This document shows positions 15,057 to 24,066 of a stretch of 24,066 nucleotides of DNA, piece by piece. A program made the translations under genes and the position numbers. The notes under the pieces are model-generated. The model did not search any database, was not told where the DNA came from, and was given only the letters and a program-made list of their open reading frames with translations. Source of the DNA: a bacterium (GTDB taxonomy: Bacteria; Joyebacterota; Joyebacteria; Joyebacterales; Joyebacteraceae); contig JALGZK010000024.1 in NCBI GenBank assembly GCA_025774935.1, positions 1-24,066 on the forward strand. The letters are read 5' to 3'. Each line of letters starts with the position of its first letter. The stretch's first letter is position 1.

Positions 15057-16302
15057 GATCGTCATCGAGGGTGGCGAGAGGCTCGAGGGCGTCGTGCACG
15101 TGAGCGGCGCCAAGAACGCGACACTCCCCGTGATGGCGGCGACGCTCCTGGCGCCGGGAGTCTACCAGCTCACGAACGCCCCGAGCCTGGTCGACGTCCG
15201 GACGATGGGTAAGATGCTGGGGGTCCTGGGCGCCGAGGTCGAGCACCACGACCACTCGATCACGATCAACACGGCGAACTGCTGCACCCACGAGGCGCCC
15301 TACGAGCTCGTGAAGCAGATGCGCGCGTCGATCTTCGTGCTGGGTCCGCTGCTCGCGCGACACGGGAAGGCGAGGGTCTCGCTTCCGGGCGGGTGCGCGT
15401 GGGGACCGCGGCCGGTCGACTTCCACATCCGCGCGATGCAGGACCTGGGCGCCAGGGTCGAGCTCGAGCACGGCTACATCGTCGCCGAGTGCGACAGGCT
15501 TCGCGGGAACACGGTCCACTTCGACACGCCGAGCGTCGGCGCCACCGAGAACACGATGATGGCGGCGTCGGTCGCAGACGGGACGACGATCATCGAGAAC
15601 GCCGCGCGCGAGCCCGAGATCGGGGCGGTCGGCGACTTCCTGCGGTCGATGGGAGCGGTGATCGAGGGTGACGGGACCGATCGCATCACGATCCACGGCG
15701 TCGACGAGCTCCACGCGGCGGACGCGGCGATCATCCCCGACAGGATCGAGGCCGGGACGTTCATGGTCGCGGCCGCGATCACCGGCGGAGACGTCCTCCT
15801 GACCGGAGTCCGGAAGGAGCACTGCTCGGCGGTCATCATGAAGCTCAAGGAGACCGGGGCCGTGATCACGGAGGAGGAGCTGGGCCTCCGCGTGCAGGGG
15901 CCGGTCTGGGCGCAGGCGGTGAACGTGACGACGGCGCCGTACCCGGGGTTCCCGACCGACATGCAGGCGCAGTTCATGGCCTTGATGTCCGTGGCCGACG
16001 GCTCGTCGGTCATCACCGACACGATCTACGCCGACCGGTTCGCGCACGTGCCCGAGCTCAACAGGCTCGGGGCGAACATCAACGTCGACCGGAACGTGGC
16101 GGTCGTGACCGGCGTGAAGTCGCTCTCGGGAGCGAAGGTGATGGCGACCGATCTGAGGGCGTCCGCAGCGCTCATCCTCGCGGGGCTCGTCGCGGAGGGC
16201 TGGACCAAGGTCTCGCGCGTCTACCACATCGACCGCGGGTACGAGTCGATCGAGAAGAAGCTCGCGGCCTTGGGTGCGAAGATCGAGAGGGTGCGGGAGT
16301 AG
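15049..16302 (+). CDS. murA: UDP-N-acetylglucosamine 1-carboxyvinyltransferase MurA
   Basis: I take ATG 15049 (MDKIVIEGG) as start, giving 417 aa, the usual MurA length. An upstream in-frame ATG at 14986 would add 21 polar residues and has GGAGG further upstream, so the start is not certain. MurA transfers enolpyruvate from PEP to UDP-GlcNAc, the first committed step of peptidoglycan synthesis in the cytoplasm. K22-N23 (SGAKNATLP) and the catalytic-loop Cys116 (LPGGCAWGPRPVDFH) are in place, so fosfomycin sensitivity is expected. Other matches include DRIEAGTFMVAAA and DLRASAALILAGL. It is coupled to prmC by the 8-base overlap. Confidence 0.97.
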   Translation: MDKIVIEGGERLEGVVHVSGAKNATLPVMAATLLAPGVYQLTNAPSLVDVRTMGKMLGVLGAEVEHHDHSITINTANCCTHEAPYELVKQMRASIFVLGPLLARHGKARVSLPGGCAWGPRPVDFHIRAMQDLGARVELEHGYIVAECDRLRGNTVHFDTPSVGATENTMMAASVADGTTIIENAAREPEIGAVGDFLRSMGAVIEGDGTDRITIHGVDELHAADAAIIPDRIEAGTFMVAAAITGGDVLLTGVRKEHCSAVIMKLKETGAVITEEELGLRVQGPVWAQAVNVTTAPYPGFPTDMQAQFMALMSVADGSSVITDTIYADRFAHVPELNRLGANINVDRNVAVVTGVKSLSGAKVMATDLRASAALILAGLVAEGWTKVSRVYHIDRGYESIEKKLAALGAKIERVRE

Positions 16303-16312
16303 GAGGAGTTAC

Positions 16313-18214
16313 GTGGCGGACCAGGCGAAGCACGTCATTCTGGGGACCGCCGGCCACATCGATCACGGCAAGACCGAGCTCATCAAGGCGCTGACGGGGG
16401 TCGACACCGACCGTCTCCGGGAGGAGAAAGACCGCGGCATCTCGATCGAGCTCGGTTTCGCACGTCTGGACCTGCCGAGCGGGAACAGCGTGGGCGTGGT
16501 CGACGTGCCCGGGCACGAGCGGTTCGTGCGGACGATGCTCGCCGGCGCCGCCGGGGTCGACATCGTGCTCCTGGTCGTCGCCGCGGACGAGGGCGTCATG
16601 CCCCAGACGCGCGAGCACATGGACATCGTGGATCTCCTGGGCGTGCGCGCGGGGCTCATTGCGATCACGAAGACCGACCTCGTCGACCGCGACCAGGCAG
16701 AGTTCGCAGGAGAGGAGGCGCGCGAGCTCGTCGAGGGGACGGTGCTCGAGGGCGCTCCGGTCGTGCTCGTCTCGTCGGTGACTCGCGACGGGCTCGACGA
16801 GCTCACGGCCGAGCTCGAGACGCTCGTGGCCGCGGCCGCGGAGCGGTCGTCGTCGGGGCCGGCGAGGTTGCCGGTCGACCGCGTGTTCACGCTCGAGGGG
16901 CACGGGACCATCGTGACGGGGACGCTCTGGTCCGGGAGCATCGCGCCCGGGGACAAGCTCGAGATCTACCCGCGGGGTGAGATCGCGCGCGTGCGCGGTG
17001 TGCAGGTGCACGATCAGGCGGTCGAGCGGGCGGAGGCAGGCCAGCGGACGGCGGTCGGGCTCGCGGGTGTCCCAAAGGACGGCATCGACCGCGGCGATAC
17101 GCTCGGGAAGCCGGGGGCGCTCCACTCGTGCTCGATGCTCGACGTCAGGCTCCGGATGGTTCGGGGTGCCAGGACGATCACAAACCGCGCCCGCGTGCAC
17201 GTCCATCTCGGGACGGCCGAGGCGCTCGCGCGGGTGATCCTGCTCGAGAGCGAGACCCTCCGCGCGGGCGACGAGTCTCTCGTCCAGCTCAGACTCGAGA
17301 CGCCGCTCGTCGCCGAGAAGGACGACCTGCTGGTGGTGCGGTCGTACTCCCCGATGCTGACGATCGCCGGAGGGCGGGTGATCGACCCCGCGCCCCGGCG
17401 GCACAAGCGGATGAAGGAAGACGTGCTCGAGTCGCTCGAGGTGCTCGAGTCCGGAGGGGCGGATGACGTGCTGCTCCATCTGGTGGGGGCCGCGGGGATC
17501 GAGGGGATGGGGGAGGCAGACCTTCGGCTCGAGGCCGGGGGTGCGTCGGCCGATGCGCTGTCGGCGCTCCTTGATGGCGGCCAGCTCGTGAAAGTGGCCG
17601 GGCGGGTGCTGACGGCGGAGCAGCGCGATGCCCTGCACGAGCGGGTTCGTGAGCTTCTCACGGCGTTCGCGGACGGCGCGCCCCTCGAGTGGGGGATGTC
17701 GGCCGAAGAACTTCGTGGCAAGCTCGCCCGAAACCTCGATCGAGGCGTGCTCGACGCAGCGCTCCGGTCGCTCGAGGAGGCGGGGGAGGTCTCGCGGAGA
17801 GGCGACCTCGTTAGGCTGGGGGGCGCCGAGGTCGAGCTCTCGGACGCGCAGTCGCGGCTCGCGGCCGAGCTCGACGATCGTCTGAAGTCGGCCGGCGTGA
17901 ACCCACCGCTCCTGGATGAGCTCCGCGACGAGCTTGGCGGGAAGGACTTCGACGCCCTCGTCAAGCTCCTCGCTGAGAGCGGACGCCTCGTGAAGGTCAC
18001 GACCACGATGCTCTACCATCCCGACGTCGTCGACGACGTCCGGGGGAAGATCGTTGCCCACTTCGAATCCGAGGACCAGTTGACCGTTCCGATCTTCAAG
18101 GACATGGTCGGCGTGACCCGGAAGTACGCGATTCCGTTGCTGGAGTATTTCGACGGGGAGGGGACGACGATGCGATCGGGGAACGTGCGCCTCAAAGGGA
18201 GGCGGCAGCGATGA
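16313..18214 (+). CDS. selB: Selenocysteine-specific elongation factor SelB
   Basis: I start it at GTG 16313, seven bases after AGGAGG (16301-16306), giving 633 aa, the normal SelB length. SelB carries Sec-tRNA and GTP to UGA codons marked by a SECIS hairpin. The GTPase motifs are GHIDHGKT (14-21), RGISIELGF (41-49, the SelB form rather than the EF-Tu form), DVPGH (64-68) and TKTD (119-122). Beta-barrel domains follow. The C-terminal winged-helix repeats bind the SECIS and end in [19 protein letters not shown], a clear SelB signature. Its stop overlaps the ispG start by ATGA. No selA, selC or selD is nearby. It implies that the organism makes selenoproteins. Confidence 0.96.
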
Positions 18215-19287: not shown

Positions 19288-19326
19288 GAAAGCCCAGTTC
19301 AAGTGGCCGAGCTGTATCGGAGGCGC

Positions 19327-20265
19327 ATGCGAGTCGCGGTTCCTGGTGGCACGGGACTCATTGGTCGCGCATTGGTCGCGGCACTCCGGAGCCGCGGCGA
19401 TCAGGTCGTCGTTCTCTCGCGGAATCCCACACGCGCGCCGGAGTGGCTGTCCGGCGTGGAGGTCTTCGGCTGGCGCCCAGAAGCTGAACATCCGCCCACA
19501 GAAGCCATCGACGGTGTCGACGCCGTGGTGAACCTCGCCGGGGCTCCGATCTTCCCCGGACGTTGGACCGAGTCCCGGATCCGTGCGATTCGGGACTCGC
19601 GTGTCCTCGGGAACAGGAACCTAGTCGCAGCGATCGGAGATACTGAGAGCCCGCCGAGTCTGATAGTCGCGGGGTCCGCGATAGGTTACTACGGGTCGCG
19701 CGGCGAGGAAGAGCTCAAGGAGGAAGCGGGGCCCGGCAGCGACTTCCTGGCCTCGGTCTGTCGAGATCTTGAGACGGAGGTGGAGGCAGCCTCACGGATG
19801 GGCGTCCGAGTCGTCAGACTCCGCACCGGAATCGTGATGGCTCCCTCAGGCGGGGCGCTCGGACAGCTGATTCCCGTGTTCCGGGCTGGCCTCGGTGGAC
19901 GCTTGGGTGCCGGCCGGCAGTGGTTTTCATGGGTGCACATCTCGGACTTGGTCGGGATCATCCTCCGCGTTCTCGACGACGACTCGATCGTGGGACCGGT
20001 GAACGCGACCGCCCCTAATGCGATCCGCAACGTCGCTTTCTCGAAGGCGCTGGGGCAGACACTCCGACGCCCCTCGATCATGTGGGTTCCTGCCGGAGTC
20101 CTCCGCCTCGCCTTCGGGGAGATGGCATCGATTCTCCTCTCAAGCCAGCGCGTGCTGCCTTCCAGACTCGCGGAGGCGGCCCACGAGTTCACCTTCGGAG
20201 AGATTGGTCCAGCACTCAAGGACTGTGTCACCCGTTCGCTCGATTCGAGCACCTCAACTCCTTAG
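19327..20265 (+). CDS. TIGR01777-type NAD-dependent epimerase/dehydratase (YfcH-like)
   Basis: I start it at ATG 19327 (MRVAVPGGTGLIG), with GGAGG three bases before it. GTG 19303 is in frame and would add eight residues with AGGAA upstream. The product is 312 aa, an extended-SDR protein: GGTGLIG at 7-13 binds the dinucleotide, VVNLAGAPI and SAIGYYGSRG hold the family catalytic region, and WFSWVHISDL is typical of the family. Its substrate is unknown. It lies 39 bases after ispG and closes the long housekeeping block. The C-terminal DUF1731-type helical segment (SRLAEAAHEFTFGEI) is present. Confidence 0.88.
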   Translation: MRVAVPGGTGLIGRALVAALRSRGDQVVVLSRNPTRAPEWLSGVEVFGWRPEAEHPPTEAIDGVDAVVNLAGAPIFPGRWTESRIRAIRDSRVLGNRNLVAAIGDTESPPSLIVAGSAIGYYGSRGEEELKEEAGPGSDFLASVCRDLETEVEAASRMGVRVVRLRTGIVMAPSGGALGQLIPVFRAGLGGRLGAGRQWFSWVHISDLVGIILRVLDDDSIVGPVNATAPNAIRNVAFSKALGQTLRRPSIMWVPAGVLRLAFGEMASILLSSQRVLPSRLAEAAHEFTFGEIGPALKDCVTRSLDSSTSTP

Positions 20266-20276
20266 CTACACCCAGC

Positions 20277-20305
20277 TTGCCAGCCGTTCGCTCACCTGAT
20301 AGGCT
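20277..20305 (+). promoter_or_regulatory. Possible promoter for the accessory cluster
   Basis: TTGCCA (20277-20282, 5 of 6) and TAGGCT (20300-20305, 3 of 6) are separated by 17 bases, in the only sizeable gap (154 bases) before the accessory cluster. Transcription would start near 20312. Confidence 0.4.
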
Positions 20306-20419
20306 AGCCGTGGGAACTGAGCGGCTCTCGATCGGTGCCGTCCAGCCGTGCGGTCGAGTTTGAGATCGCGTGCTGTGGTCTGCTGAAGACATCATAGTGA
20401 GGAACGGAGGTCATCCCTC

Positions 20420-21169
20420 ATGTCTGCCGATCTGGAGAGCATTCTCCGTCCCGTCGACAACCCCATGCCACCCTTCCCCGCGAAGCACGTGACCATCGCA
20501 AGCGGGGAGGAGATGGTGATACGCCAGGTCACGCGCGACGAGATCCCGGACATCCTCCCACACGTCGCTCCCCTCATATACGTCGAGAGGGACTTCTACG
20601 ATGTCGTCGCGGCACGCGTCTACTCCGAGCTTCTCTCGTACTACCGGTACCGCATCCAAGATGCGTACGTCCTGGTCGCCCAGATCGACGGGGAGCTCTG
20701 CGCGGTGGTGAACGGTCGGATGGCGACGCCCGAGGTCGGGATGTCTCTCCATACACTCGCGATGAGGCGCGGTCTCCGCATCGGCGCGCACGCCTTCGCT
20801 GCCAAGATGGAGTACCACATGGACATCATGGGGCAGCAGGAGGTGCTCATCGTTGCCGAGTCGCCGATCGGGTTCCGCCGCTGGATGATCGAGTACAACC
20901 TCGAGAAGCGCTTCGACGTCCCGCACGAGCTTGGCGGCGTTCCTTCGTGGGCGCTCACTAAGGAGCTCTTCGACAGGGCGCGCGCCACCCTTGTCGTCGG
21001 CAGGCGCCCGGTGCCCGAAGAACTTCTCGAGAAGGCACACGCTGCCATCCTGCCGCCGTCCGACCCGCCGACACCGCCCGAGGATCTCCTCGCGGCAACG
21101 CGCTCGCAGTACGATTCCACCGGCACCGCGCTCATCCTCCAGCGCTGGAGGCAGGAAGGGAAGGTCTGA
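20420..21169 (+). CDS. GNAT-like protein of unknown function
   Basis: The product is 249 aa from ATG 20420, with GGAGG (20406-20410) nine bases upstream. I do not recognise a named family. Residues 30-60 (MVIRQVTRDEIPDILPHV) and the RRGLRIGAHAF stretch resemble the first strand-helix and the acetyl-CoA loop (RGxGIG-like) of GNAT acetyltransferases, so an acyltransferase fold is possible. The C-terminal 60 residues are polar and Pro-rich (PPSDPPTPP). The stop lies two bases from the thiolase-like start, so the two are surely co-transcribed and may share a pathway. Alternatives are a degenerate GNAT domain or a binding protein. Confidence 0.75.
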   Translation: MSADLESILRPVDNPMPPFPAKHVTIASGEEMVIRQVTRDEIPDILPHVAPLIYVERDFYDVVAARVYSELLSYYRYRIQDAYVLVAQIDGELCAVVNGRMATPEVGMSLHTLAMRRGLRIGAHAFAAKMEYHMDIMGQQEVLIVAESPIGFRRWMIEYNLEKRFDVPHELGGVPSWALTKELFDRARATLVVGRRPVPEELLEKAHAAILPPSDPPTPPEDLLAATRSQYDSTGTALILQRWRQEGKV

Positions 21170-21171
21170 CG

Positions 21172-22347
21172 ATGCGCTCCGTCTACGTCATCGGCATCGG
21201 GATCACGTCCTTCACACGCCTCGAGTACCCGCTCTCCGAGATCGCGGCCTACCCTGCGATGATGGCGATGAAGGACGCAGGGCGGAAGGAGATCGACCAC
21301 CTCTACGTCGCGAATATGGGAAGCGGTCGGGTCAACCACCAGACGGGGCTCGCGAGCGCCGTCGTCGACACGCTCTCCCTGACCCCGGCCGGCGCAGAGG
21401 CGATCGAGAACGGCCCCGCGTCCGGCGCCTCGGCCATCAAGACTGGCTACATGGCCGTCGCCTCGGGGGTCCACGATGTCGTCATGGTCACGGGCGCAGA
21501 GCGCATGCGCGAGGTGAACAACCTAGAGGCGACCGAGTTCGTGGCGACACTCACGCATCCTCTCGCAGAGTACATCTACGGCGTGACACTTCCGTCCCTG
21601 GCGGCGATGTTCACACGGCTCTACATGGAGAAGTACGGCGTCACCGAGCGCCACCTCGCGATGGTCGCCGTCAAGAACCAGAACAACGCGCTCAAGAACG
21701 AATTCGCGCACCTCCAGCAGGAGATCTCGATCGAGGGCATCCTCGACTCGCCCGAGGCAATGACGAACAACCCGTACGTCGCCGAGCCGCTCCGGTTCTT
21801 CGACTGCTGTCCCGTGTCGGACGGGGGGGCGTGCGTGATTCTCGCGTCTGAGGAGGTGGCAAGGAAGGTCGAGCGACCGCTCGTCCGGCTCGCTGGCGTC
21901 GGCCAGGCGACGGATACCCACGCCGTCCATGAACGGGAGGAGCCGACCGACCTTCTCGCCGTGCGGCGAGCGGCAGCGAAGTCGTTCGAGATGGCAGGGC
22001 TCGCTCCCTCCGACGTCGACGTCGCTGAACTCCACGACGCGTTCACGATCCTCGAGATCGTGGAGAGCGAGGAGGTCGGATTCTTCCCGAAGGGGGAGGG
22101 ACACCTCGCGCTCGAGCGGGGAGAGACCGCGATTGGCGGGACACTCCCCATCAACCCGTCTGGTGGACTCAAAGGTCGCGGCCACCCCGTCGGCGCGACG
22201 GGCATCGCCCAGGCGCACGAGATCGTGCACCAGCTTCGGGGTGATGCTGGCGAGCGCCAGGTGAAGGACGCGAAGGTCGGGTTCACCTGCAACTTCGGCG
22301 GGTTCGGGAACAACGTCGTCTGCCTCACGTTCGTCAGGGGGAACTGA
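21172..22347 (+). CDS. Thiolase-fold enzyme lacking the nucleophilic Cys
   Basis: The product is 391 aa from ATG 21172, two bases after the previous gene. It belongs to the SCP2/archaeal-type thiolases: VYVIGIGITSFTR start, HDAFTI (H288), NPSGGLKGRGHPVGATG (H338) and CNFGGFG (C373). The family nucleophile motif CASG reads GPASG, so the Cys is P82, and there is no other Cys nearby. Classic thiolysis or Claisen condensation through a Cys acyl-enzyme is therefore unlikely. The thiolase-fold aldolase Ltp2 of steroid degradation also lacks this Cys and needs a DUF35 partner, and a DUF35 gene follows here after three bases. The actual reaction is unknown. Confidence 0.9.
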   Translation: MRSVYVIGIGITSFTRLEYPLSEIAAYPAMMAMKDAGRKEIDHLYVANMGSGRVNHQTGLASAVVDTLSLTPAGAEAIENGPASGASAIKTGYMAVASGVHDVVMVTGAERMREVNNLEATEFVATLTHPLAEYIYGVTLPSLAAMFTRLYMEKYGVTERHLAMVAVKNQNNALKNEFAHLQQEISIEGILDSPEAMTNNPYVAEPLRFFDCCPVSDGGACVILASEEVARKVERPLVRLAGVGQATDTHAVHEREEPTDLLAVRRAAAKSFEMAGLAPSDVDVAELHDAFTILEIVESEEVGFFPKGEGHLALERGETAIGGTLPINPSGGLKGRGHPVGATGIAQAHEIVHQLRGDAGERQVKDAKVGFTCNFGGFGNNVVCLTFVRGN

Positions 22348-22350
22348 TCG

Positions 22351-22698
22351 ATGGCTCGCGAGATCTACGCCTACAAGTGCAGGAAGTGCGGGCACACCCA
22401 CTACCCGTACCGCATGGTCTGCAAGAGCTGCGGCGAGAACGAGCACAACGAGTTTGATCAGGTGCCCTTGCCGAAGCGGGGGAAGCTCCTGACGTGGACG
22501 CGGGCGTACAGCCTGCCTGCTGACTTCGAGGTGCCGTCGCTCGGGCTCGCGATCGTGGAGCTTGAGAACGGGATCCGGATGACCGGGCAGCTGCGGGTCG
22601 ATGACCCGCGGATGGGGATGGACGTTCGGGGTGAGGTCGAGATCGTCCGGCGGGAAGGGTACGACGAGCGGTACGGGATGGTCTTCTACGAGGCGTGA
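22351..22698 (+). CDS. DUF35 zinc-ribbon / OB-fold protein, thiolase partner
   Basis: The product is 115 aa from ATG 22351, three bases after the thiolase-like gene. Four cysteines (C10, C13, C24, C27) form a rubredoxin-like zinc ribbon (KCRKCGHTHYP, CKSCGEN). An OB-fold follows (GKLLTWTRAYSLP, LGLAIVELENGIRMTGQL). DUF35 proteins bind acyl-CoA and form complexes with thiolase-fold enzymes, for example in archaeal HMG-CoA synthesis and in the ChsH2-Ltp2 aldolase. The gene spacing makes a complex with the preceding protein very likely. The length is that of a minimal stand-alone DUF35. Confidence 0.92.
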   Translation: MAREIYAYKCRKCGHTHYPYRMVCKSCGENEHNEFDQVPLPKRGKLLTWTRAYSLPADFEVPSLGLAIVELENGIRMTGQLRVDDPRMGMDVRGEVEIVRREGYDERYGMVFYEA

Positions 22699-22708
22699 CG
22701 GGGGATGA

Positions 22709-23548
22709 GTGGCTGAGCTTCTGAGCATCGGTGACCGGGTCGAAGGGGGAACGTACCAGGTCCACTCGCGGTTCCGCCGCGTGGTGAATCTGACCGACGG
22801 CGACTCTCTCGTCTCGGTGGTCGAGCCCGGCGTAGGCGCTGGCCCACTGAACCTCGTCGTCACGGACCTCGATCCAGAGGGCATCGCGCGGCTCGACGTC
22901 GGCCGATCGGCGGTACAGCTCGACACGAAGCGCTTCGAGCTAGGTGCCGGCCAGACATTCGACTCCGGGGTCAGCCTCTCGGGGGCGGATGCTGAGACGA
23001 TCGCAGCGAACACTGCGGCTCTGCGCGAGTTACTCGTTGCCCTCGCGCCTGAGAAGAGCCTTGCGTTCCTTCTGGACGAGTCCCGGGTCGAGCGATTCCG
23101 GGCCGGATTCGAGCGCACGCTCGCCGAGCATCTCACGCACTGTGTCCGCGACATGTTCACGTCCGATCTCCTTCGAGGCGTCTCACGTCTGAAGGGGGCC
23201 GGGTTCGGGCTCACGCCGAGCGGGGATGACTTCATCTGCGGTCTCCTCGTCGGCATGCATGTCCTGGAACAGATTCAGACGATTGACCTGATGAGCCTTC
23301 GGTCTGCCGTCTACGAGGCGGCGAAGAGCGGGAGCATTCTGACGGACACCGCGCTCGCCCTTGCGCGGGACGGTCTCGTGTTCGAGCAGTTCAAGGACCT
23401 CATCACTGCGCTGGGGTACGGGAGTCACACAGATCTACGGCGGGCAACCGTGCGGCTGCTCGCCGTCGGGCACACCTCGGGCGCCGACATCGCGACGGGT
23501 CTCTGCCTCACGCTCGAGCACGGCGTCCGCAGGATGGGGCACTCGTAG
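22709..23548 (+). CDS. DUF2877 protein (AllH/YlbF-like)
   Basis: The product is 279 aa from GTG 22709, with GGGGGATGA directly upstream and a 10-base gap to the DUF35 gene. The DUF2877 hallmark GFGLTPSGDD lies at 165-174, with GLLVGMH after it. The related E. coli protein YlbF (AllH) is, as I recall, one of three subunits (with FdrA/AllF and YlbE/AllG) of oxamate transcarbamylase in allantoin breakdown. fdrA follows here, so the partnership is probably conserved. The role of this protein alone is not clear. The N-terminal part (about 1-120) is poorly conserved to my eye. Confidence 0.88.
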   Translation: MAELLSIGDRVEGGTYQVHSRFRRVVNLTDGDSLVSVVEPGVGAGPLNLVVTDLDPEGIARLDVGRSAVQLDTKRFELGAGQTFDSGVSLSGADAETIAANTAALRELLVALAPEKSLAFLLDESRVERFRAGFERTLAEHLTHCVRDMFTSDLLRGVSRLKGAGFGLTPSGDDFICGLLVGMHVLEQIQTIDLMSLRSAVYEAAKSGSILTDTALALARDGLVFEQFKDLITALGYGSHTDLRRATVRLLAVGHTSGADIATGLCLTLEHGVRRMGHS

Positions 23549-23590
23549 TCGGTACAGGCGCACACTCCTCCGACCAGGAGCCAACACGGC

Positions 23591-24066
23591 ATGGTCGTCT
23601 CCGGCCGCGTCAAGAAGGGCGCGTACTTCGACTCCGTCACCCTCATGACGGTGGGGAATCAGCTCGCCGAGCGGGCGGGTGTCGCGGACGCGGCTGTCGT
23701 GATGGGGACGAAGGAGAACCGCGCCATCCTCGCTGCGTCGGGCCTGCTCCTTACCGAGTTCGAATCCGCCACCGATACGGACCTTCTGCTGGCGGTAAAG
23801 ACCGACACCGACGCGGTAGCCGAGGAAGCACTCGCCGCGGTCGACGTTCTTCTCGCTGAGTCCAGGAAGCGTGACACACCAGGCGAGACACTCCGGCCAA
23901 CGAGCATCCCGGGTGCGGTCGAGGCCGTGCCGGACGCGAATCTCGCCCTCATCTCCGTCACGGGGCGCTACGCCGCGCGCGAGGCCAGGAAGGCCCTCGA
24001 CGCCGGGCTCCACGTGATGCTCTTCTCCGACAACGTCTCGGTCGAGGACGAGGTCGCACTCAAGCG
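23591..24066 (+). CDS. fdrA: FdrA (AllF) family protein, 3' partial
   Basis: The reading frame starts at ATG 23591, with AGGAG (23576-23580) ten bases upstream, and runs off the window end after 158 codons; full FdrA is about 500-550 aa. The N-terminus matches the FdrA family closely: KKGAYFDSVTLM, VVMGTKENRAIL, PDANLALISVTGRYAA and VMLFSDNVSVEDEVALK. FdrA resembles the succinyl-CoA synthetase alpha chain and in E. coli is part of oxamate transcarbamylase. The gap to the DUF2877 gene is 42 bases. The next gene downstream would be expected to be a YlbE/AllG (DUF1116) homologue, and possibly a carbamate kinase, but neither is in view. Confidence 0.93.
   Translation, partial: MVVSGRVKKGAYFDSVTLMTVGNQLAERAGVADAAVVMGTKENRAILAASGLLLTEFESATDTDLLLAVKTDTDAVAEEALAAVDVLLAESRKRDTPGETLRPTSIPGAVEAVPDANLALISVTGRYAAREARKALDAGLHVMLFSDNVSVEDEVALK

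Follow-up and report, generated by a model that had tools for sequence, protein, structure and literature searches.

A conserved gene cluster joining AllFGH-type subunits to a cysteine-less thiolase/DUF35 pair in uncultured bacteria, a candidate for anaerobic oxidative pyrimidine breakdown

What could bring two subunits of an oxamate-transcarbamylase-like enzyme together with a thiolase-fold protein that has lost its catalytic cysteines? The question is raised by five genes at the end of a 24,066-nucleotide stretch of bacterial DNA, referred to here as the window (GenBank assembly GCA_025774935.1, contig JALGZK010000024.1, positions 1 to 24,066; GTDB family Joyebacteraceae), which is the entire contig C35 of a 3.24-Mb genome in 40 contigs. 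They encode a GNAT-fold protein, a thiolase-fold protein, and a DUF35 protein (together, the triad), followed by AllH and AllF. The five-gene linkage is real, not chance, the cysteine-less thiolase is a regular, conserved member of the cluster, and the five genes make up the opening half of a cluster conserved in uncultured bacteria of many phyla. On balance, we lean toward anaerobic, oxidative pyrimidine catabolism, with uracil as the most likely substrate and with energy saved as carbamoyl phosphate. Gene content and order, their conservation, the loss of the cysteines, the exchange of the triad for CoA-transferase and amidase genes, and the permease type are direct observations; we infer the substrates and reactions throughout, from the gene content and from relatives. 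The features are as follows (window coordinates, or L002 for contig C7 of the same genome).

20266..20419, no strand: intergenic gap of 154 bases before the first gene; no sigma-70-like site
20420..21169, + strand: GNAT-fold protein, 249 amino acids (aa); AlphaFold2 model with GNAT fold, no Pfam/NCBIfam match
21172..22347, + strand: thiolase-fold protein, 391 aa; both catalytic Cys gone (ENGPASG; HDAF), His of GHPVG and HDAF kept
22351..22698, + strand: DUF35/ChsH2-type partner, 115 aa; PF01796 and PF12172 above cut-off, C4 zinc ribbon (CxxC...CxxC) plus OB fold
22709..23548, + strand: AllH/DUF2877 subunit of oxamate-transcarbamylase-like enzyme, 279 aa, GTG start; PF11392, 77 bits
23591..24066, + strand: AllF/FdrA N-terminal part (NF004760); continues at L002:1-646, then Ligase_CoA part at L002:643-1131 in an overlapping frame
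23953..24066, no strand: 114-base overlap with the start of contig C7; exact identity
L002:1128-2540, contig C7 continuation of the cluster: AllG
L002:2566-3384, contig C7 continuation: PF04199 "cyclase" hydrolase
L002:3394-4281, contig C7 continuation: XdhB (flavin adenine dinucleotide [FAD])
L002:4290-4757, contig C7 continuation: XdhC (2Fe-2S)
L002:7496-9844, contig C7 continuation: XdhA (molybdenum [Mo] subunit)

A preliminary description of this DNA had placed the five genes in tight series behind the 154-base gap and had assigned their families. Place, shared direction, and spacing (2, 3, 10, and 42 bases) were borne out, profile scores agreed with the calls of thiolase, DUF35, AllH, and FdrA, and the GNAT-like call was upheld by the fold of a structure model, though not by any Pfam match in sequence. 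The plausible promoter proposed before the first gene found no support (0 sigma-70-like sites in a scan of the gap).

Direct comparison shows the final 114 bases of the window to be identical to those with which contig C7 begins, and the truncated FdrA gene therefore runs on into that contig. The joined locus reads GNAT–thiolase–DUF35–AllH–AllF–AllG–PF04199 hydrolase–XdhB–XdhC–(aquaporin Z, HtrA-like protease)–XdhA, with AllF, AllG, and AllH all present and contiguous (345 bits for AllG; 134 [in the window], 259, and 138 bits for the FdrA pieces). The AllG (DUF1116) gene that had been predicted downstream was therefore found; the carbamate kinase predicted with it exists in the genome, on another contig and outside the cluster (G000:C2:170213-171133), and was above cut-off in 18 of 20 family genomes. 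AllH is a single-copy gene in the source genome and, by family comparison, the most variable of the three subunits. Relatives carry AllF as one fused 512-aa protein; in the source genome, allF is split, a linker deletion leaving overlapping TGA/ATG (window 23591-24066 and L002:600-660), and the split is either real or an assembly or sequence error. In Spirochaetota (L152:11207-14398, L153:5340-8438, and others), AllF and AllG stand in one open frame of about 1,030 to 1,070 aa, apparently fused, which fits a shared complex.

The aquaporin Z and HtrA-like protease genes (L002:4786-7056) were seen in this genome only and appear to have been inserted into the operon. On either side of the cluster lies a YfcH-type epimerase gene (window 19303-20265 and L002:9888-10811; 71% identity between the two); in G017, a relative described below, a different gene lies upstream. 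The selenocysteine elongation factor SelB is encoded at window 16274-18214, and the organism may make selenoproteins.

A family survey covered 20 genomes of the phylum (13 with AllG), and the source genome is in the same family as a metagenome-assembled genome named Candidatus Effluviviaceae (G017; L048 = G017:C81). The order GNAT–thiolase–DUF35–AllH–AllF–AllG–PF04199–XdhB–XdhC–XdhA was kept in the family wherever contigs were long enough. A scan of 84,980 species genomes with an AllG alignment gave at least 575 loci, the nearest 80 of which were analyzed (56 to 82% identical; 18 named phyla); genomes and loci counted are not independent samples. AllF occurred in 72 to 74 of these 80 loci, the PF04199 hydrolase in 65, XdhB in 57, AllH in 56, XdhC in 55, XdhA in 52, GNAT in 18, and thiolase/DUF35 in 15. 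The core of AllF/AllG, hydrolase, and Mo-hydroxylase recurs across the 18 phyla, and the triad joins it in at least 8 phyla, lying upstream, internal, or downstream. The thiolase/DUF35 and FdrA/DUF2877 pairs, whose coupling the preliminary description had proposed, stand together in relatives and in other phyla. A GNAT-seeded search of Spirochaetota found the protein in 15 of 392 genomes, all 15 of which carry AllG, against 32 of 392 with AllG overall (1e-18 under genome independence, which does not hold); thiolase and DUF35 were directly beside GNAT in 11 of 12 fetched regions, and most of the longer ones also carry the core. On a tree of AllG sequences, the well-supported branches cannot be explained with fewer than four changes of triad state; the association of triad and core was therefore probably made or lost repeatedly. 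If the thiolase/DUF35 genes and the AllFGH genes were neighbors by chance, with no shared function, the absence of the triad from most AllG loci would be expected, but this reading sits badly with the kept gene order, the spread of the triad over phyla and positions, the Spirochaetota counts, and the repeated changes on the tree; we regard it as very improbable and reject it.

The preliminary description had suggested that a thiolase-fold/DUF35 complex acts on a C-C bond of an acyl-coenzyme A (acyl-CoA) or similar substrate, with a carbamoyl or acyl-phosphate step that conserves energy. The energy-conserving carbamoyl step fits; the acyl-CoA core misses the Mo-hydroxylase and the ring-opening hydrolase, which, together with permeases and amidases of sister clusters, suggest instead that the cluster acts on a pyrimidine ring. 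The Xdh hydroxylase, ring-opening hydrolase, AllFGH, uracil-type permeases, malonamidase-like amidase, and CoA-transferases fit one uracil chain. XdhABC is the candidate for oxidizing uracil to barbiturate, and the PF04199 metal hydrolase would open the barbiturate ring, giving ureidomalonate (HOOC-CH2-CO-NH-CO-NH2), a homologue of oxalurate that is longer by one carbon. AllFGH would phosphorolyse ureidomalonate to malonamate and carbamoyl phosphate, from which the genome's carbamate kinase could make ATP. The malonyl unit would be passed to malonyl-CoA or acetyl-CoA, by the triad in this lineage (its last CoA step perhaps a KSQ-like decarboxylation) and by an amidase and CoA-transferase in others.

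Evidence on the substrate comes from several of these proteins. In 9 of 12 loci, the neighboring NCS2 permeases had a higher score for uracil permease than for xanthine permease. In XdhA, Ala follows GGGFGGK in 48 of 48 readable sequences (GGGFGGKA-type), a position that we take to hold the substrate-binding Glu of purine xanthine dehydrogenases (bovine Glu802). The PF04199 hydrolase belongs to the kynurenine-formamidase family (nearest structure, 4cob). In another genome, G288 (L156:9631-18667), a GNAT homologue adjoins dihydropyrimidinase and lies near PreA (dihydropyrimidine dehydrogenase) and PreT-like genes and an acyl-CoA carboxyltransferase, ca. 20 kb from a full core cluster with a permease and with no thiolase in the fetched region; its place by dihydropyrimidinase and PreA is a second tie of the family to pyrimidines. 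AtzD-family barbiturase and ureidomalonase were not recognized in the clusters by general family scans, which included no dedicated search for either.

Loci without the triad show what may take its place. They often carry a uracil-type permease. A class III CoA-transferase was present in 15 of them, in most cases with an amidase-signature enzyme after it (13 loci), while others held a CN-hydrolase (12, nearly all Elusimicrobiota) or an isochorismatase-like hydrolase (5), and L072 held a class I CoA-transferase pair; two CoA-transferase classes and unrelated amidase families thus fill in where the triad is absent. Triad and CoA-transferase co-occurred in 0 of the 80 loci, and all GNAT-less AllG loci of Spirochaetota with a visible flank (n = 4) have a CoA-transferase and amidase. 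An amidase occurs together with the triad in L147 and L155; what the triad replaces is therefore the CoA-transferase and not the amidase. The amidases beside the CoA-transferase have malonamidase E2 (1ock) as the nearest solved structure (190 and 169 bits), with GatA next (160 and 147 bits), and 8 of 13 cluster amidases carry the GSxxR motif of malonamidase E2, whose Arg presumably binds the malonamate carboxylate.

The thiolase-fold protein matched both thiolase domains (Thiolase_C_1, 151 bits; Thiolase_N, 82 bits; PF22691 and PF00108 above cut-off), and its DUF35/ChsH2 partner scored 33 and 28 bits. That the thiolase lacks Cys, as had been remarked from the letters, holds for the catalytic positions. 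ENGPASG, with Pro at the nucleophile position, was found in 26 of 26 cluster thiolases (AllG-seeded loci plus Spirochaetota) and in aligned family members, and the second site reads HD[A/P]F in the same 26 (HDAF in the window, where Ala replaces the Cys of HDCF). The C-terminal Cys373 of the window protein is not conserved (L, T, V, or I elsewhere). The histidines of the GHP and HDAF motifs are retained in cluster thiolases, the zinc ribbon of the partner was kept in 26 of 26 checked, and the thiolase orthologue is 82 to 96% identical across the family. A paralogue in the same genome (G000:C15; ca. 44% identical), encoded by a separate gene, retains ESACASG and HDCF. Since both catalytic cysteines are lost in the cluster thiolases, ordinary thiolase activity should not work. 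KSQ ketosynthase domains, which are Cys-less, decarboxylate malonyl thioesters, and the two His without Cys of the cluster thiolases resemble them; by this analogy, the cluster thiolase would most likely decarboxylate a malonyl-type CoA ester and not act as a thiolase, which is the least certain part of the scheme.

The first gene of the cluster encodes a protein without Pfam or NCBIfam match in the window (a homologue in L097 gave a weak GNAT match). It was modeled with AlphaFold2 from a deep alignment of 33 sequences (predicted local distance difference test score [pLDDT], 85.8), and the model matched the GNAT fold (Foldseek E, 9e-8; Z, 13.7 over 163 residues to PA3270, residues 14-192). A CoA-binding-type loop, RGLRxGA, is conserved, with Arg for the middle Gly of the usual motif, and malonyl-CoA decarboxylase was not among the 50 best listed fold matches. 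The protein is 80 to 85% identical within the family. One copy was present in each of 8 of 8 triad- or GNAT-bearing genomes tested and none in 5 genomes with other cluster types; in the genomes tested, it occurs only with this pathway's genes. It is possibly a CoA-dependent acyltransferase or decarboxylase.

Other substrates have to be weighed against uracil. The same logic of ring opening and phosphorolysis could serve a different pyrimidine derivative or N-heterocycle, such as thymine, a base derived from cytosine, or a cofactor-derived ureido-acid: it would need the same genes, AllH as the most variable subunit could set specificity, and clusters with 40 to 45% identical XdhA exist, but the uracil permease type and the resemblance to malonamidase speak for a malonyl product without substituents, which leaves this reading unlikely. 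We hold as somewhat less probable a route from a hydantoin-type ring through parabanate to oxalurate, with AllFGH as a true oxamic transcarbamylase and the oxamate hydrolysed and activated to oxalyl-CoA. It draws on the action of Escherichia coli AllFGH on oxalurate (PMC11326118) and on the best NCBIfam match of the class III CoA-transferase, CoA:oxalate CoA-transferase (374 bits, below the cut-off of 522), while the permeases are uracil-type, the amidase is nearest to malonamidase, among solved structures succinate-HMG CoA-transferase (338 bits) is nearer to the CoA-transferase than YfdE is (326 bits), and the family has no allantoinase above cut-off.

Less probable again is a purine route, in which XdhABC would form xanthine, the PF04199 enzyme would open it to 4-ureido-5-imidazolecarboxylate, and AllFGH would remove the ureido group as carbamoyl phosphate. 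An Xdh-type enzyme, the xanthine-type permease of three Caldisericota loci, and a PucR-type regulator in L113 would suit it; the mostly uracil-type permeases and the XdhA without the purine-binding Glu would not, the route offers no role for the malonamidase-like amidase or the CoA-transferases, purine-type genes form a set of their own elsewhere in the genome, and the loci showed no downstream genes for glycine formation. On contig C2 (L165-L167), the source genome carries adenine deaminase, SsnA, a second XdhB, dihydropyrimidinase, carbamate kinase, and PreA. An ordinary allantoin locus, the outcome that the preliminary description had set against its own proposal, was rejected: AllG, the PF04199 hydrolase, and XdhBCA follow downstream, and there were no allantoin genes in the joined locus and no allantoinase above cut-off in the 20 family genomes.

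Several observations weigh against the oxidative uracil scheme. The triad is not one indivisible unit, for GNAT occurs without thiolase in Thermotogota and Caldisericota. In the three Caldisericota clusters the permease is nearer the xanthine type, and the source genome's only strong NCS2 permease lies outside the cluster and does not single out a uracil transporter. Reductive-type genes (PreA and dihydropyrimidinase) are also present in the source genome, and carbamate kinase, besides lying outside the cluster, is found in genomes without AllG too. As an oxalate type, the class III CoA-transferase has a slightly higher score than as a succinate/glutarate type, which would suit an oxalyl product too. 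The case for malonamate depends on sister clusters, since the family of the window has no permease, amidase, or CoA-transferase in its cluster.

We propose tentatively, and with less assurance than the breakdown of a pyrimidine as such, that this is a new widespread pathway through barbiturate and ureidomalonate with AllFGH-type phosphorolysis, in which the double-Cys-less thiolase/DUF35 pair with the GNAT protein would be a new malonyl-type CoA decarboxylase or transferase. No description of this cluster was found in the open-access literature searched on FdrA/DUF1116 with DUF2877 and on ureidomalonate, malonamate, or barbiturate pathways. If true, the scheme would supply candidate genes for steps by which anaerobes degrade pyrimidines oxidatively, would give AllFGH, besides allantoin, a second ATP-yielding use in forming carbamoyl phosphate, and would assign a function to a thiolase subfamily lacking either catalytic cysteine in at least 8 phyla; it would also explain a nucleobase diet common to uncultured Cloacimonadota, Elusimicrobiota, Kiritimatiellota, Effluviviacota, and Spirochaetota. 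Two Spirochaetota carriers (G389 and G418) are single-contig genomes with clusters resembling that of a Sphaerochaeta metagenome-assembled genome, so tests in culture look possible.

Among known systems, E. coli oxamic transcarbamylase AllFGH (fdrA, ylbE, ylbF), which cleaves the acyl-urea oxalurate (PMC11326118), is 46% identical in AllG, 43 to 46% in AllF, and 33% over 110 aa in AllH; here, the partners are an Xdh-type Mo-hydroxylase, a PF04199 hydrolase, and the triad or CoA-transferase/amidase, the joined locus is without allantoin genes or adjacent carbamate kinase, and AllF is without the C-terminal extension of the E. coli protein and is split in the source genome. The best solved relatives of the thiolase by profile (7yvy, 394 bits over 387 positions; 6esq, 363 bits; further down, 7pxp, 218 bits) share its thiolase-DUF35 architecture, but throughout the cluster group Pro takes the place of the nucleophilic Cys of catalytically competent thiolases. 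The Cys-less, DUF35-partnered steroid aldolases Ltp2 (with ChsH2) and Sal (with Shy) likewise combine a thiolase fold with a zinc-ribbon partner and have lost thiolase chemistry, but they use a catalytic Tyr in YDHF/YDCY (PMC12329534) that is missing from the cluster group, which has HDAF and no catalytic Cys there. Relatives of malonamidase E2 and of class III CoA-transferases lie in sister clusters, not in the window, and are used here to support the proposed intermediate. The reductive uric acid pathway (XdhD, YgfK/UacX, SsnA, HyuA, YgeW; PMC12507026) also breaks down an N-heterocycle without oxygen and involves an Xdh homologue and carbamoyl phosphate; the set on contig C2 resembles its cluster, whereas the cluster studied here has different enzymes throughout. 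As far as the account in PMC7662398 goes, the oxidative pyrimidine pathway proceeds by uracil dehydrogenase, barbiturase, and ureidomalonase (Soong et al. 2001, 2002, cited there), and the proposed scheme would share its intermediates barbiturate and ureidomalonate and the malonyl unit at its end. It would differ in the PF04199 enzyme as ring opener and in the fate of ureidomalonate, which that pathway hydrolyses to malonate and urea and which would here be phosphorolysed to malonamate and carbamoyl phosphate.

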